Of a DNA stretch of 34,432 nt, positions 578 to 29,100 are shown piece by piece (within the stretch, counting starts at the first letter, position 1; each line of letters begins with the position of its first letter). Both the position numbers and the translations under genes were made by a program. The stretch lies in the NCBI GenBank assembly GCA_016779995.1, contig JADHMO010000014.1, positions 1 to 34,432 of the forward strand. Direction: 5' to 3'. Source of the stretch: Flavobacteriales bacterium. Its GTDB lineage: Bacteria; Bacteroidota; Bacteroidia; Flavobacteriales; UBA7312. The notes beneath the pieces are model-generated. The model saw only the letters and a list, made by a program, of their open reading frames with translations, searched no databases and was not told the origin of the DNA.

Positions 578-1879
578 TTAAGCTTTTTTAAGAAACTTTA
601 GTTTTGGTTTATTCTTTTGCTCTTTTTTAAAGATTTTCATCATTGGTGCTATATGGCTTTCATCACTCTTGTTTATGTATTTAAGAAAAGTACTTTCCTT
701 TGTGTGACCTGTAACACTCATAATCATAGGAGTGCTTGCTTCTTTGTTATAGTAGTAATTAGTTGCAAATGAACGTCTGCCAGTATGTGTTGTAATGTAC
801 ATATACTTTGGTCTTGTGCCCTTTACTTTTCTTTTAGTTTTAGGGTCATATAGTTTTCCAACAGTTAAATCGTTTATCTCTGCAAGTTCACAAATTTTCT
901 TAAAGTATTTATTTAACTTTTGGGTTGATACTTTGTAAGGAAGCCCATTTCTATAGATTTCTTCAACCTTAGGATGAACAGGAATGGTAACCTTTTTATT
1001 TCCCTTGTGTTGTGTTATATCAATTATAAGATTTCCATCTTCCTTTGTTTTAAAGACTCTAGAATCAGCAACTTTCAATAAATCTTGACCTCTTTGTCCT
1101 ATGTGGCAAGCTATAACGAGCCACTTTCTGGCATTAACTAATGCTTCTGATTTTAAATCAACCTCTTCTATTCGTTCTATTTCATTTTTATTTAAATAAA
1201 CAACATCTTCATCATCATCATAAGTCTTAATTTCACCTAATTTAAATGAATGAAAATCAATTGGAAGGGGCAATCCTTTTGAATTGGCGTATCTACAAAC
1301 TACACGTAAATCAGCTATTTTTTTATTTGAATATACAGCAGAGTAATTATTGTCTGTTAAAAGCCAAGACCTAAACTCATTCAATAACATTGAGTTTAAT
1401 TGAATTAATCTTATGCTTTTGTTCTTTTGAAATTCTGAAAATAAAGTTTTTAATCTTTTATATGCTTGTATTCTTGATTTAGATAATCCAATACCTCCTT
1501 TAGAATTGTTTATAGTATTAGCATTATCTATTAAATTCTGAATTAAGTCTAAAACAAAATCACTTTGGGTTGTTTCGCTTACTCTCTTAAAGAATAAATC
1601 AATTTGAAAACCTAACCAAGTGCTATTTAAAATTTCATTACTAGCATTGGCTTGATTTACCTTATTGTAGATGTGAGTCTCTAATGCTTTTAAATCTACA
1701 GCCAAATTTTTGTTGATAGGACTTGTTTGTTTAGGGTATCCTTTAGAATAACTCCATTGATTTTTAGCAATAGTAAAGCCTGTTTTTTTCATATAGTCCC
1801 TCCCTCTACCCAAACTTAACCTTAGGTAAATTGATAAAGTGTCAGACTTTCCTTTTAGCTGGTATTTGATTGTTGCCAT
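578..1879 (-). CDS. Tyrosine recombinase / phage-type integrase
   Basis: A 433-residue site-specific recombinase that should insert and excise the element to its left. The N-terminal ~90 residues look like the arm-binding domain typical of Bacteroidota integrases. A helical core-binding (SAM-like) domain follows at ~105-210, and the catalytic domain runs from ~230. The active-site set is complete: Arg263 in GQRGQD, a Lys in the QHKGNK beta-hairpin (~292), His365 and Arg368 in THTGRRS, His392 in TGHTKES, and the nucleophile Tyr401 in FLKYI. Length and motif spacing fit full-length enzymes, so it is probably active. It is the last gene before an attachment site made of a tRNA 3' end, and the intervening DNA carries direct repeats suited to arm binding. 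The RteC-like gene follows two bases downstream. Specificity cannot be told beyond the tRNA tail. Confidence 0.93.
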   Translation of the reverse strand: MATIKYQLKGKSDTLSIYLRLSLGRGRDYMKKTGFTIAKNQWSYSKGYPKQTSPINKNLAVDLKALETHIYNKVNQANASNEILNSTWLGFQIDLFFKRVSETTQSDFVLDLIQNLIDNANTINNSKGGIGLSKSRIQAYKRLKTLFSEFQKNKSIRLIQLNSMLLNEFRSWLLTDNNYSAVYSNKKIADLRVVCRYANSKGLPLPIDFHSFKLGEIKTYDDDEDVVYLNKNEIERIEEVDLKSEALVNARKWLVIACHIGQRGQDLLKVADSRVFKTKEDGNLIIDITQHKGNKKVTIPVHPKVEEIYRNGLPYKVSTQKLNKYFKKICELAEINDLTVGKLYDPKTKRKVKGTRPKYMYITTHTGRRSFATNYYYNKEASTPMIMSVTGHTKESTFLKYINKSDESHIAPMMKIFKKEQKNKPKLKFLKKA

Positions 1880-1967: not shown

Positions 1968-2061
1968 ATCTAATATTTTTTATGAATAAGATATTTTAAT
2001 CAGAAATGTGTTATGTTAACAGCTATGAATCTAAAAAGATTAATAAATGGTAACACAGGGT

Positions 2062-2083
2062 TTCAAGTCCCGCCCTGGGTACA
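2062..2083 (+). other. Attachment site: duplicated 3' end of a tRNA gene
   Basis: TTCAAGTCCCGCCCTGGGTA reads as the tail of a tRNA: T-loop TTCAAGT, 3' T-stem CCCGC, 3' acceptor strand CCTGGGT and discriminator A, followed by CA. An intact gene would need a T-stem 5' half GCGGG and a 5' acceptor ACCCAGG. Instead the preceding bases are ACACAGGGT, which breaks the T-stem, and no D arm, anticodon arm or 5' acceptor is present. This is what remains at the far end of an element integrated into a tRNA 3' end; the reconstituted tRNA should lie at the other end, left of the window. An imperfect inverted repeat (ACACAGGG at 2053-2060 with CCCTGGGT at 2073-2080) is also present. Which tRNA it was cannot be told. 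Confidence 0.65.
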
Positions 2084-2110
2084 AGCCCTCGAATAATCGA
2101 GGGCTTTTTT
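2084..2110 (+). terminator. Intrinsic terminator directly behind the tRNA tail
   Basis: A perfect nine-base-pair stem, AGCCCTCGA (2084-2092) with TCGAGGGCT (2097-2105), a four-base loop and a six-T run to 2110. It starts three bases after the tRNA discriminator and is best read as the original terminator of the tRNA gene, now separated from its promoter by the integrated element. Confidence 0.85.
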
Positions 2111-2137
2111 GTTTTAAGTTATTCAAATATACTTTAT
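2108..2137 (+). promoter_or_regulatory. Weak candidate promoter for the structured RNA
   Basis: TTTG at 2108-2111, at the end of the terminator T-run, and TACTTTAT at 2130-2137 are separated by 18 bases. The first fits the -33 element. The second matches four of the six fixed positions of TAnnTTTG plus the following T, so it is a degenerate -7 box. Initiation would be near 2144, just before the large hairpin. Confidence 0.3.
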
Positions 2138-2143
2138 AGCTAC

Positions 2144-2345
2144 AAAAAAAAGAGTTTTAAGCTGTTGCGGTGGTTAAAAGACCACGACAATAGCAAAAAC
2201 TCTAATTAAGTATTAGTGAAGTTATCGAAAACAGTTCGCAAGATCACGCTAATACTAAAGGCTTAAAATTCAGGCTTAAAGGACAATCGAGTGCCGCTTA
2301 TTTTAGGATTAAATATAAAAAGCACTCATTTCTGAGTGCTTTTTG
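2144..2345 (+). ncRNA. Candidate structured small RNA of about 200 nt (6S-like size), family unknown
   Basis: The segment has no coding frame but is dense in complementarity. Hairpin 1 pairs AGAGTTTT (2151-2158) with AAAACTCT (2196-2203), then GCTGTTG with CAATAGC, then GTGGT with ACCAC around TAAAAG. Hairpin 2 pairs AGTATTAG (2209-2216) with CTAATACT (2249-2256) and contains an inner CGAA/TTCG. A perfect terminator hairpin ends the segment. TTTTAAGC (2155-2162) can alternatively pair with GCTTAAAA (2261-2268). Size, isolated position and terminator would suit a stand-alone RNA such as a flavobacterial 6S RNA, but I do not recognise a family-specific motif. Orientation is not certain: read on the minus strand, hairpin 1 is followed by eight Ts, so it could also end a leftward transcript. 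It does not resemble RNase P RNA, tmRNA or SRP RNA. Confidence 0.4.
2317..2344. terminator. Bidirectional intrinsic terminator
   Basis: AAAAAGCACTCA (2317-2328) and TGAGTGCTTTTT (2333-2344) form a perfect twelve-base-pair stem with loop TTTC. The A-run before and T-run after make it work on both strands: rightward for the candidate small RNA, leftward for the waaA transcript, whose gene ends about 200 bases away. The same GAGTGC also occurs at 2289-2294 and could compete for the GCACTC arm. Confidence 0.85.
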
Positions 2346-2540
2346 CTTAAGGGAGGTAAATAAGTCTATGTCAGTATAATTAACATAAAATCAGAGAAGT
2401 AAGCTCTGTATTCGTCTTTTCCACAACAAAGAAACGCTACTTTTTTGAATATAGCACTATAGTTTTTGACGACTAATAAAATTATATGGATGAAATGGGA
2501 TATTTGCCGATAAACAAAATTCTAAAACCTTAAAAATGAC
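2346..2540. other. Intergenic, nothing recognised
   Basis: This AT-rich stretch lies between the bidirectional terminator and the end of waaA. I see no convincing coding frame, RNA hairpin with T-run, or clean promoter pair here. Together with 1880-2345 it makes a 660-base interval without a protein gene. Confidence 0.5.
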
Positions 2541-3740
2541 TTAAATCGCATCATTTATAGCATTAATAATCATTGTGTTTGCACCTTTTTTTTCTGAAAT
2601 AAAGGCTAAAGCGTCATTTTCACTATGGCTTCTATGGTCAATAAGTTGTTTAATAGCTGTCTCTAACTCATATTCGTTCTTGATACTTTGTGCAATACCT
2701 GCACGAATCGCTTCTTTTGCTTCTTCGTATTTATGGAATTTAGGACCAAAAAATACATACGAGCCAAAGGCTATTGCCTCGAGAATATTGTGTAATCCCT
2801 TACCAAAAGCACCTCCAATGTAACTAAGGTTGGCGTATTGATACAATTGTGATAAAATTCCAATACTATCTATGATTAAAATAGAGTGATTTTTGACGTT
2901 ATCTTTATTAGCTTGACTGTAGAGTAAACCATATTTTTTTAAATCATTGCAAAGTTCTATTTCATGAGGAGCTAAAATAAATTTTACTTCTGGCATTCTA
3001 TTGCTGATGTTTATCAGCATTTTACTATCAATTTTATAAGTGCTTCCAGCTACTATTAGTGGGCGAGAACCTTTAAATGATTTGATGTAAGGAATTTCTT
3101 TTGATTGAATACTATCTTCAAATACTTTGTCGTATCTATTGTCTCCGCTAACTGTAACTTGATGAATACCTTTATTATTCAACAGAGTTTTGGATACTTC
3201 ATCTTGAACAAAGAAATGACTAACGTCTTTTAGTATGCCAAGGTGCCATTTTCCATAAAATTTAAAAAGATAGTGTTGGGGTCTAAAAATAGCCGAAACT
3301 ACATATGTTGGAATTGATTTATGATGCAGTTTTTTGAAAAAGTTAGGCCACAATTCTGACTTTATAAAAATGGCAATTTTAGGTTTTGTCCTATCTAAAA
3401 AGCTATCAGCATTAGCTGAAGTATCTAAAGGTAAATAGGCTTTATAATCTACATGCTCATTTTTTCCAGCATTTAAATAACCAGAAGGAGAGAAAAATGT
3501 AAGTAAAATTTTATGTTCTGAATGTCTTTGTTTTAAAGCCTCAATAATAGGTTTGGCTTGCATATACTCGCCTAATGAAGCACAATGGAACCAAATAACT
3601 TTCTCTGTTGTGCCGTCTGGCAAATAATCCTCTAAATTTTTTCTTCCATTCAGCCATTGCCTAGCTTTTAATGAAAAGGGACTAGATAGATAAATGATTG
3701 CCCCGTAAAGTCGAATGATTATTTGATAAATTAAATTCAT
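2541..3740 (-). CDS. waaA: 3-deoxy-D-manno-octulosonic acid (Kdo) transferase
   Basis: Transfers Kdo from CMP-Kdo to lipid A precursor at the inner face of the cytoplasmic membrane, the first core-sugar step of lipopolysaccharide synthesis. The 399 residues fit the family (about 400-430). A hydrophobic N-terminal segment (~3-20) anchors it to the membrane. The signature FHCASLGEY (51-59) contains the catalytic-base Glu58. FSPSGYLNAG, KSELWPNFF (127-135), VSGDNRYDKV, VAGSTYKID and the nucleotide-sugar site GGAFGKGLHNILEAIAFG follow in the usual GT-B order. It begins three bases after the stop of the outer-membrane-type gene upstream, so the two are likely co-transcribed. Transcription should end at the bidirectional terminator near 2330. 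It shows the cell makes Kdo-containing lipid A, as expected for Bacteroidota. Confidence 0.95.
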   Translation of the reverse strand: MNLIYQIIIRLYGAIIYLSSPFSLKARQWLNGRKNLEDYLPDGTTEKVIWFHCASLGEYMQAKPIIEALKQRHSEHKILLTFFSPSGYLNAGKNEHVDYKAYLPLDTSANADSFLDRTKPKIAIFIKSELWPNFFKKLHHKSIPTYVVSAIFRPQHYLFKFYGKWHLGILKDVSHFFVQDEVSKTLLNNKGIHQVTVSGDNRYDKVFEDSIQSKEIPYIKSFKGSRPLIVAGSTYKIDSKMLINISNRMPEVKFILAPHEIELCNDLKKYGLLYSQANKDNVKNHSILIIDSIGILSQLYQYANLSYIGGAFGKGLHNILEAIAFGSYVFFGPKFHKYEEAKEAIRAGIAQSIKNEYELETAIKQLIDHRSHSENDALAFISEKKGANTMIINAINDAI

Positions 3741-25020: not shown

Positions 25021-26043
25021 ATGAAAAAAATTCCATTATTATTTTTCACTTTATTAGCAAGTTTTTCATTTGCACAATGTAGTCTAGAAATCGCTGATAC
25101 TACTCACATCAATTGTAATGGAGATAATACTGGTGCTATAGGTCTGAGTGTTTTGAATGCTGCTCAGCCCTACACTGTTTATTTAAGTAATGGCGCAGTG
25201 GCTGTTAACGGTGATAGTTTTTCGGGCTTATTAGCTGGAACTTATCAGCTCATACTTTTAGATGCTAATATGTGTAGCGATACTGTTGAAATAAAGTTGA
25301 AAGAACCTTCTTTACTAACTTTAAATTTGAGATGTGAGTCTAATGATTTAATTGCTGAAGTAAATGGAGGAGTAAAGCCTTATATGTACTATTGGAGAGA
25401 TCTTACAAATGCCATTTTTTCAAACGATTCTTTACTTAGTTTTAATCCTTCTCAATTATATGACTTTGAGGTTATAGACAGTAAAGGTTGTCAATTAAGA
25501 GATAGTGTGTCCTTGGTTGTGGATTTTAGTGTTGATAAAGTCATTGGTGATGTGCCCTTGACTATTCAGCTTACAAATAATAGCAGTGAAGGTTTTTATC
25601 AATGGACTTTTGACGATGGTGAAAGTGCTAGTGATTATAATCCAATCCATGAGTACGAATCTGTTGGCACATACAACCTAAGTTTACAATTGACTGATGA
25701 ACATGAGTGTGTCGATGAAAAAACAGTTGTAATTGAGGTGCAAGGTTTTGATTTATCTATCAATGATTGGGAAGAAATGTTCAATGCTTTTAGCCCAAAT
25801 GGAGATGGTATAAATGACAGTTTTTCTTTTGAAGAAAATAATGCTATTTCTGAATTTAGCGTAAAAATTTTCAACAGATGGGGTTCTTTAGTTTATAGCT
25901 GGACTGACCCCAATTTCAAGTGGAATGGTTTAAGCTTTGATGGCGATAATTTAACACAAGGAGTGTATTATTATTACATGAATGCAACAGGTCAAGACGG
26001 TCAATTATATGAAAAAAAAGGTTCAATAAGCTTGTTTTTCTAG
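25021..26043 (+). CDS. Secreted protein with SprB-like repeats, PKD domain and T9SS type B C-terminal domain
   Basis: A 340-residue cell-surface protein. Signal peptide 1-18 (MKKIPLLFFTLLASFSFA). Residues ~19-97 are a SprB-type repeat (HINCNGDNTGAIGL, AGTYQLILLDANMCSD, IKLKEPSLL); ~98-168 is a degenerate second one. A PKD domain spans ~172-241 with FYQWTFDDGESASDYNPIHEY and GTYNLSLQLTD. The last ~87 residues (254-340) are the gliding-motility-associated/CHU_C domain: FNAFSPNGDGINDSF, KIFNRWGSLVY, WNG and GVYYYYM, the signal for export through the type IX system and surface attachment. It is the smallest of three tandem genes with the same architecture. Its target is unknown; adhesion or motility are family-based guesses. 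Confidence 0.9.
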   Translation: MKKIPLLFFTLLASFSFAQCSLEIADTTHINCNGDNTGAIGLSVLNAAQPYTVYLSNGAVAVNGDSFSGLLAGTYQLILLDANMCSDTVEIKLKEPSLLTLNLRCESNDLIAEVNGGVKPYMYYWRDLTNAIFSNDSLLSFNPSQLYDFEVIDSKGCQLRDSVSLVVDFSVDKVIGDVPLTIQLTNNSSEGFYQWTFDDGESASDYNPIHEYESVGTYNLSLQLTDEHECVDEKTVVIEVQGFDLSINDWEEMFNAFSPNGDGINDSFSFEENNAISEFSVKIFNRWGSLVYSWTDPNFKWNGLSFDGDNLTQGVYYYYMNATGQDGQLYEKKGSISLFF

Positions 26044-26079
26044 AGTGTTAACAACTTTGTTGAAGTAGAGTTTAGCTAA

Positions 26080-26142
26080 TTTGTTTTAATAGTACTATTA
26101 ATGTTATCTTTGGCTGTTTTGTAAGATATAAATGATATTTTT
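26080..26142 (+). promoter_or_regulatory. Two candidate promoters before the 1468-residue gene
   Basis: TTTG (26080-26083), 21 bases, then TATCTTTG (26105-26112), an exact -7 box. Further down TATTTTTG (26135-26142) is also exact, with TTTG at 26109-26112 lying 22 bases before it. The leaders would be about 75 or 45 bases. Their presence in the 149-base gap suggests this gene has its own transcription and is not only read through from the preceding gene. Confidence 0.5.
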
Positions 26143-26192
26143 GTAAATTCTTATGTATATGAGTAAATTTACTTTGTTAATAAGCATTAAAA

Positions 26193-29100
26193 ATGAAAAA
26201 CATTAAAATTTACACGAAAGCTTTATTTTGCTTTCTTTTGTTACTATCCTCATCTAGTAAGGCTCAGCAGGTTTTCATAAGTCAAGATTTTGAAAATCCA
26301 GCAACAATGGATTGGACCTTAAATGAAATTGTGCCATTTTTAGGAACCGTTAGTTCTGTTCACAACACATTCATTGTAAATGATGTTTACGAAGGAGGAA
26401 ATGTGTTTTATGATTTTGCTGTTATTCCAATTCCAAATACAGCAGATCAAGGATATCAACCAAATAGTAATTACTTGCATACAGCAGCTTTTGATGCAAT
26501 CAATGGAAATGGTGGTCTGCCTGCTGTTTTAAACTCTACCTACATAGATCAAGTCATTAACGACATACCAGAGTTGATTTGTGCTATGACACCTGATTAC
26601 AGCACCATTGGATTTGAAGGTGTTGATGTGTCTTATTGGTGGTACAGTATTTGGTCCGAAACAGAGTTTGGTACAGAAGTTTACTATTCTCTTGATTTTG
26701 GAACAACATGGACGCTCATAGATGGTCCATTATCTGCTGACACTACTTGGCAACAATCTTACATTGATATGGGTAATACCCTTGATAACTTACCAAATGT
26801 TCGATTTGCTTTTGTTTTCAGTAATACATTGGATAATCAATTTACAAACAATCTTCTTCCTTTGCAGGGTTTTGGACTAGATGATTTTCGTTTGATTGCA
26901 GATTGTGATTTTGAATTACCTGAAGATTATACGGTTTGTTCTGGCGAGTTAACAACCATTCATGCCGATACAACTTGGTATAACTCATTTGCTTGGAGCA
27001 CAGGTTCTGCATTAGATAGTGTGTCTCTTGTTATCAATCAAGACACTACAATTTCTATTTTAGCTATCAATGAATATTGTACTATTCAAGATGATATTAC
27101 CATTTTTGTGCAAACAGAAAGAGCAGATCTTGGCCTAATAGTCAATGGGGAAGTTAATGGTGTTGGAATTCCTTGCTACGGTGATTGTAATGGAGAACTT
27201 CAACTTGAAGTAATTAACGGTACTCCAGAAAATGATGGGTCATATACTGTTCAGTGGATGGATTCTTTGATGAACCCAATTAATAACAACGTCAATAATA
27301 GTGTCCTAAATAATTTCACTTCAACTCTTTCAGATATTTGTGAAGGTAAATATTATGTCTCTGTTTTAGATGCGATTTGTACAATTCCAGAAATAGATTC
27401 GATTATAATCATTTCTAACGATTCAATTTCCAATTCATTTACTTCAGACTCTACTTCTTGCTACAACGGTACTGATGGAACGGCGATGGCACACCCTTCA
27501 GGTGGTATAGCCCCATACACATACAATTGGGGTGCATTCGGCACACAACAATCTATTGATGATTTGCCAATTGGTACATACACTGTAGTCGTTACAGATA
27601 GTGTAGGTTGTTCTAAAGATTTTAGTGTAAAAATAAGTCAACCCAACCAACTAATTGTAGATGCTTTTATCTCTGATCAAATTAGTTGTTATGGTCTTTC
27701 AGATGGTGAGCTTTCAGCTAATGTTTACGGAGGTACTGGTGATTATTCATTTGTTTGGAGTCACCCTAATTATCCTTGGGTTGACGATGCGCCATATCAT
27801 CTTCAAACACTTTCAAACCTTCCTTATAGCGTTGGAGCTGATGACATAGCTCTAAACCCAAATTATCAGTCTTACTCAGACCCATATAAAATCACTGTCA
27901 CAGATGATAATGGATGTCAATCTGAGTCTGAAATTTATTTGATAGAACCATCAAAATTAGAATTGTTCTTGACTCAACCGACAAAACCTGCTTATTGTAA
28001 CAATAACTTGCTGGGTTATAATACAGGATGGGCTCAAGTTTCAGCTTCTGGTGGTACTCCTAATGCTAATGACAATTATAATTTCGTATGGTCAGTGTTG
28101 GGTCAAACAGATGAAGATGTATTATATAGTTCTATAGAGAATATGAATTCTGGATTTTATGATGTAACTGTTGTGGATAGTCGATTATGTGCTGATCAAA
28201 TTACAGTTGAAATTGATTTAGTTGCTACTTGGCAAGAGTACACTTATTCCACACCAGCTAGTTGTTTTGGATATAATGACGGAACAGTTTCTATTTCTAT
28301 GGAAGGTGGTTGTGGTGATGTAGACAACAGTTGCGATTTCTATTATGAGTGGAATGGTGGAGCAGCAACTGGTAATAACTTACCTGATGTTGATGAATTA
28401 CAACAAGGTAATTATTCAGTAACTGTAACGGATGAGTTTGGTTGTGAAGGGGTTTATACACTTACAGTCGATGGTCCTACTCGAGTAGATTTTCAAGTTA
28501 CTGACTTAGTAAATCAGTCTTGCTTCAGTCCTACAGCATCTTCAGACGATGGTTCTGTAGTTGTTGAAGTCGTAGGTGGAGTCCCCCCTTATGACGTAAG
28601 TTGGACTGATATGAATACGATGATTGGCAATAATGCCCAAACTCTAAACTCTTTAACTATTGGCGGATTGACCTCTAGCAATTGGGAAATTCAGATTACT
28701 GATGCTTCGGGTTGTGAAGGTATTTTTGACTTAACGTCTTTACATTCTAACCCATTCTTTATAGATAATGGTGTTGAAGTCACTGCTGCAATAAATACTA
28801 ACGAATTATTTTTAACAGATACAATTAATTGTTATGGTTCAAGTAATGCAATGGCATCAGTTTTAAATTCAAACCCTACGTTTGATTATTCATGGCACAT
28901 TGAAGGTTCGACTGTGGTTATCGATGAAGGTCCATCTTCCAATACACTCCCAGCAGGAAACATTCAAGTTACGGCGTCTTATCTGCTTGGTCTTTGTAAA
29001 GCAACGTCTATTCCAGTCACAATTGTTGAAAGAAATCCATTCACTCTAAATAACTTAAGCACAAACCCATCTTGCTTAGATGATAATGATGGTTCAATAT

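Follow-up and report, generated by a model that had tools for sequence, protein, structure and literature searches.

A stably folded non-coding segment between tRNA-Leu and waaA in a marine Flavobacteriales genus as a candidate small RNA

The 34,432-nt stretch of DNA analysed here (the window), a contig from a marine member of the Flavobacteriales, contains a non-coding structured spacer restricted to one marine genus of the order, which we read tentatively, and ahead of the other explanations considered, as encoding a short plus-strand RNA that would end at a bidirectional terminator. This reading is built on the two hairpins, the terminator, the retention of the segment in a related species (G004) and the slower change of stems than of unpaired bases. 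At most, the segment can be called a candidate small RNA, and one of ordinary kind. The initial annotation had described a structured, non-coding segment at this place with two hairpins whose outer stems are 8 bp each; both are present, as are the terminators on either side, and the fold lies far beyond chance. It had also remarked that there is no gene to control on the same strand, and indeed none lies on the plus strand ahead of the convergent waaA. The features of the region are as follows.

2059-2082, plus strand: 3' part of tRNA-Leu(UAA), the likely junction of an integrative element with the chromosome
2083-2106, plus strand: intrinsic terminator of tRNA-Leu; the same hairpin follows tRNA-Leu in G003
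2108-2137, plus strand: promoter-like TTTG-N18-TACTTTAT, a background-level match
2151-2203, either strand: hairpin 1 (H1), with an outer, a middle and an apical stem of 8, 7 and 6 bp, respectively
2151-2158 and 2196-2203: outer stem of H1, AGAGTTTT paired with AAAACTCT, 8 bp
2209-2256, plus strand: hairpin 2 (H2), 10-bp stem with an inner CGAA/UUCG stem; pairing slightly better on the plus strand
2209-2216 and 2249-2256: outer stem of H2, AGTATTAG paired with CTAATACT, 8 bp, with one U-G and one G-C pair in addition
2257-2316, plus strand: linker, unstructured (z -0.34) and fast-changing
2317-2344, both strands: predicted bidirectional intrinsic terminator, common to the segment (plus) and convergent waaA (minus)
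2346-2540, minus strand: 3' flank of waaA, non-coding; colinear in G003 and G004, missing from G002 and G001
2541-3740, minus strand: waaA (3-deoxy-D-manno-octulosonic-acid transferase; Pfam PF04413, E 5e-42), convergent with the segment

On the plus strand, positions 2120-2350 fold at -65.2 kcal/mol (z -5.9), a value equalled by none of 200 shuffles, and the segment still gives a z of -5.65 without its terminator; the minus-strand fold of 2100-2345 reaches -57.3 kcal/mol (z -4.5). H1 alone has a z of about -7 to -8 and is the second most stable of the 8594 58-nt windows on each strand of the contig, the first being the tRNA terminator region. H1, H2 and the terminator follow one another in that order. 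As a feature of the sequence the putative bidirectional terminator is firm: 2317-2344 forms a G+C-containing hairpin with T runs on both sides and is kept in relatives. The strand ambiguity pointed out in the initial annotation is borne out, the more favourable strand for folding of H1 being plus in the window and minus in G004; a T8 run, counting the last stem base, lies 3' of H1 on the minus strand. Beyond the terminator, the plus-strand fold of 2346-2540 is unremarkable (z -1.15). On the minus strand 2317-2540, terminator included, gives a z of -2.55, and the waaA 3' flank (2346-2540) is 59-76% identical to G004 and gone in G002 and G001.

The segment was located in three of five related species: that of the window, G003 (in part) and G004. 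The sister contigs, all from uncultured Flavobacteriales metagenome-assembled genomes, are 94.5% (G003), 90.9% (G002), 89.6% (G001) and 77.8% (G004) identical to the window. G004 keeps the whole segment as a colinear homologue, its alignment with the window running on to 2146. In the G003 assembly, 92 bp including H1 are missing between two TTAAGT repeats (2114-2119 and 2206-2211); the promoter-like region is deleted there as well, and it is not kept in G004. The matches of G002 and G001, about 90% identical over the neighbouring genes, break off at the waaA end, at 2553. Since these two stop at 2553 while G004 reaches 2146, the genus ancestor probably had the segment, which would then have been lost in the G001/G002 line, as judged from these alignments, exchange being a possible alternative. 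Beyond the waaA stop, G002 (contig C14) and G001 (contig C16) carry unrelated DNA from the same breakpoint (window 2553). From this common breakpoint, the interval beside tRNA-Leu is a replacement hotspot. When covariance model R1 was run against 196 genomes of the order, strong matches were confined to the three genus members, and further matches of 32-39 bits probably reflect the terminator. Phage, plasmid and viral collections yielded no homologue of the segment, one viral contig having only a terminator-like hairpin in common with it.

A tyrosine integrase gene (578-1879, minus strand; PF00589) joins the tRNA-Leu fragment on its left, and G003 has a full tRNA-Leu where the window has the 3' part only. 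ARAGORN finds tRNA-Leu(taa) at the corresponding place in G003, G002 and G006, and the window yields no tRNA in the same type of search; its positions 2059-2119 share 96.7% identity with G003. The integrase adjoining the 3' fragment of tRNA-Leu(UAA) makes it probable that the window's left part belongs to an integrative element that used this tRNA; 578-2082 would be one end of the element, with the remainder beyond the contig. The segment itself is on the chromosomal side, with the tRNA-Leu terminator to one side and waaA reading towards it from the other, and G003, which is without the element, has the order tRNA-Gly, tRNA-Leu, segment, waaA.

Elsewhere in the contig, the spacer at 26040-26195, ahead of the gene for a 1468-aa SprB-repeat protein with a type IX secretion signal, is 96% identical to G004, though the flanking genes are 76-77% identical, and only 81% identical to G002, which is otherwise closer (about 91%). 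This spacer has no stable fold (z +0.5), and its identity pattern suggests local recombination between lineages.

Comparison with G004 showed changes at 15 of 90 stem sites against 39 of 89 non-stem sites (p = 8.5e-5, a value that treats adjacent sites as independent and takes the structure from the window). The linker differs at 24 of 54 positions from G004 and at 10 of 62 from G003. Overall, the segment is 50-86% identical to G004, which is not above other intergenic regions (70-96%). H1 is kept in G004 and missing in G003; when its 11 substitutions in G004 were placed at random, equal stability arose in 10.9% of trials on the plus strand and 1.1% on the minus strand. The outer 7-bp stem of H2 is kept in G004 and the full stem in G003, where random substitution did as well in 2.9% of trials on the plus strand; the figure for G004 is 19%, and H2 in that genome is no better than shuffles. 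Compensatory changes in the waaA-downstream region of relatives, proposed as a check in the initial annotation, were found mainly in the terminator, where G004 keeps every pair with two compensatory changes and none broken, and at one pair of H2; H1 has none, the three sequences giving little power. Over the whole structure, standard pairs make up 95.6% on the plus strand versus 92.0% on the minus strand, a difference of four cells that is too small to settle the strand. Both hairpins are real and probably under some constraint; their distribution is narrow, and sister species can dispense with them.

Among the readings weighed, a lineage-specific small RNA on the plus strand is the likeliest, though we hold it tentatively; a neutral palindrome and accessory termination follow closely. 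An RNA of about 200 nt would be transcribed from its own promoter, starting just past the tRNA-Leu terminator; H1 and H2 would form in it, and its 3' end would lie at the predicted terminator 2317-2344, which would also end the convergent waaA mRNA. By analogy with other intergenic small RNAs it might act by base-pairing to mRNAs, no target being proposed. Slightly more doubtful is the proposition of a trans-acting RNA that is confined to this marine genus, sits at a tRNA-Leu/waaA integration hotspot and has repeatedly disappeared from sister species. The very stable fold, the order of hairpins and terminator, the predicted intrinsic terminator at the expected 3' end, the lack of a conserved ORF and the colinear homologue in G004 all speak for a small RNA. 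Its length fits the independent transcripts of Flavobacterium psychrophilum, which have a median of 176 bp (PMC9723704). The segment resembles the Rfp RNAs of that species (PMC9723704), by their description, and GibS and the BTnc RNAs of Bacteroides thetaiotaomicron (PMC7366714) in being short, non-coding, structured and intergenic with an intrinsic terminator, but those RNAs have mapped start sites and transcripts whereas the segment is known here from sequence alone. Intergenic small RNAs of Bacteroidota sometimes have a narrow phylogenetic range (PMC9723704, PMC7366714). The initial annotation's suggestion of an undescribed small RNA may hold, the structure being partly maintained in relatives, but is weakened by the absence of H1 from one close relative and by the promoter: the match is present, but its class occurs at 4.85 per kb per strand in the contig and hence is no evidence. 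Against the small RNA also stand the loss of both H1 and promoter region in G003 and of everything in G002 and G001, and H1 itself, which lacks compensatory change and in G004 folds better on the minus strand, where alone it beats random substitution.

It is less likely, though still a serious contender, that the segment is a palindromic spacer, neutral or decaying, sited at a tRNA integration hotspot in an interval repeatedly replaced, with hairpins that are functionless leftovers owing their shape in part to hairpin-templated correction. The directly adjoining integrase and tRNA-Leu junction, the fast-changing linker and the switch in G002 and G001 from about 90% identity up to 2553 to wholly different sequence are in keeping with such decay, and the 92-bp gap of G003 between TTAAGT repeats is as expected of slippage across a hairpin. 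Such neutrality sits poorly with stems more conserved than non-stems against G004 and with a minus-strand H1 in G004 that is more stable than random substitution usually leaves. A repeated palindrome of the REP/MITE type was rejected, the segment being single-copy in its genome.

Somewhat less probable again is an accessory transcription-termination zone, in which 2317-2344 would stop transcription both ways and H1 with its minus-strand T run would serve as a back-up against waaA read-through antisense into tRNA-Leu. The conserved pairs of the predicted bidirectional terminator, the T8 run after H1, the convergent gene order and the good minus-strand fold of H1 in both the window and G004 would suit this role, but G004 does not preserve the T run, the bases in question being part of a longer stem there, and H2 is left unexplained. 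Compared with bidirectional intrinsic terminators between convergent genes, 2317-2344 fits the pattern and H1 and H2 are extra.

Very improbable is a cis-regulatory leader, or attenuator, working through a GAGTGC/GCACTC switch. The alternative long-range pairing noted in the initial annotation does exist in the window, where GAGTGC (2289-2294) can pair with GCACTC in the 5' arm of the terminator, but it is not conserved, the partner reading CAGTGC in G003 and CGATGC in G004, and the plus strand offers no gene before convergent waaA. A small protein was likewise rejected, no ORF being common to the window and G004; the exception among ORFs of at least 20 aa, a minus-strand frame of 20 aa that crosses the terminator in both the segment and its homologue, looks coincidental. 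Rfam families other than 6S gave no match at gathering level, the best sub-threshold ones being FtrA and FasX (E 0.02-0.06; 27-28 bits versus gathering scores of 100 or more), whose scores seem due to AT-rich sequence and terminators, and BTnc231 matched the segment at chance level (18.5 bits versus a gathering score of 80.4).

The initial annotation's further suggestion that this is the lineage's 6S RNA can be given next to no credence: size (about 200 nt), intergenic position and structure alone speak for it, but 6S RNA (RF01685, 6S-Flavo; RF01693, Bacteroidales-1) is a rod with a central bubble whereas the segment forms separate hairpins, and the Rfam scan, 6S-Flavo included, gave no gathering-level match in the window and no 6S model among the matches at E<=10 (1980-2560). 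A better candidate lies on another contig of the window's own genome, at G000:C7:14635-14763 on the minus strand (L068), so the segment is not the 6S RNA. Orthologues of this 6S-like RNA occur in G002, G003, G004, G005, G006 and G008 (L065-L067, L069, L070, L083), making the locus conserved in 7 of 10 genomes of the bacterial family; they have a mean identity of 85% when aligned, and a pairable ACCCGC...GGGT end stem followed in several members by T runs. RF01685 finds weak matches of about 128-131 nt, at one orthologous locus in most family genomes. RF01693, annotated in Rfam as a suggested 6S-Bacteroidales, matches the locus at E 2.9e-6 in G006, 0.002 in G008 and 0.039 in G005. Scores of both models are below the Rfam gathering scores everywhere, and the label '6S-like' is accordingly a qualified one, resting jointly on the two models and on orthology.

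To our knowledge, hardly any small RNA has been described in uncultured marine Flavobacteriales, and the tRNA-Leu/waaA segment, if expressed, would add one more lineage-specific example. The more useful by-product of the analysis is the location of the family's putative 6S-like RNA despite its sub-threshold Rfam scores, which makes it a candidate for extending the 6S models.
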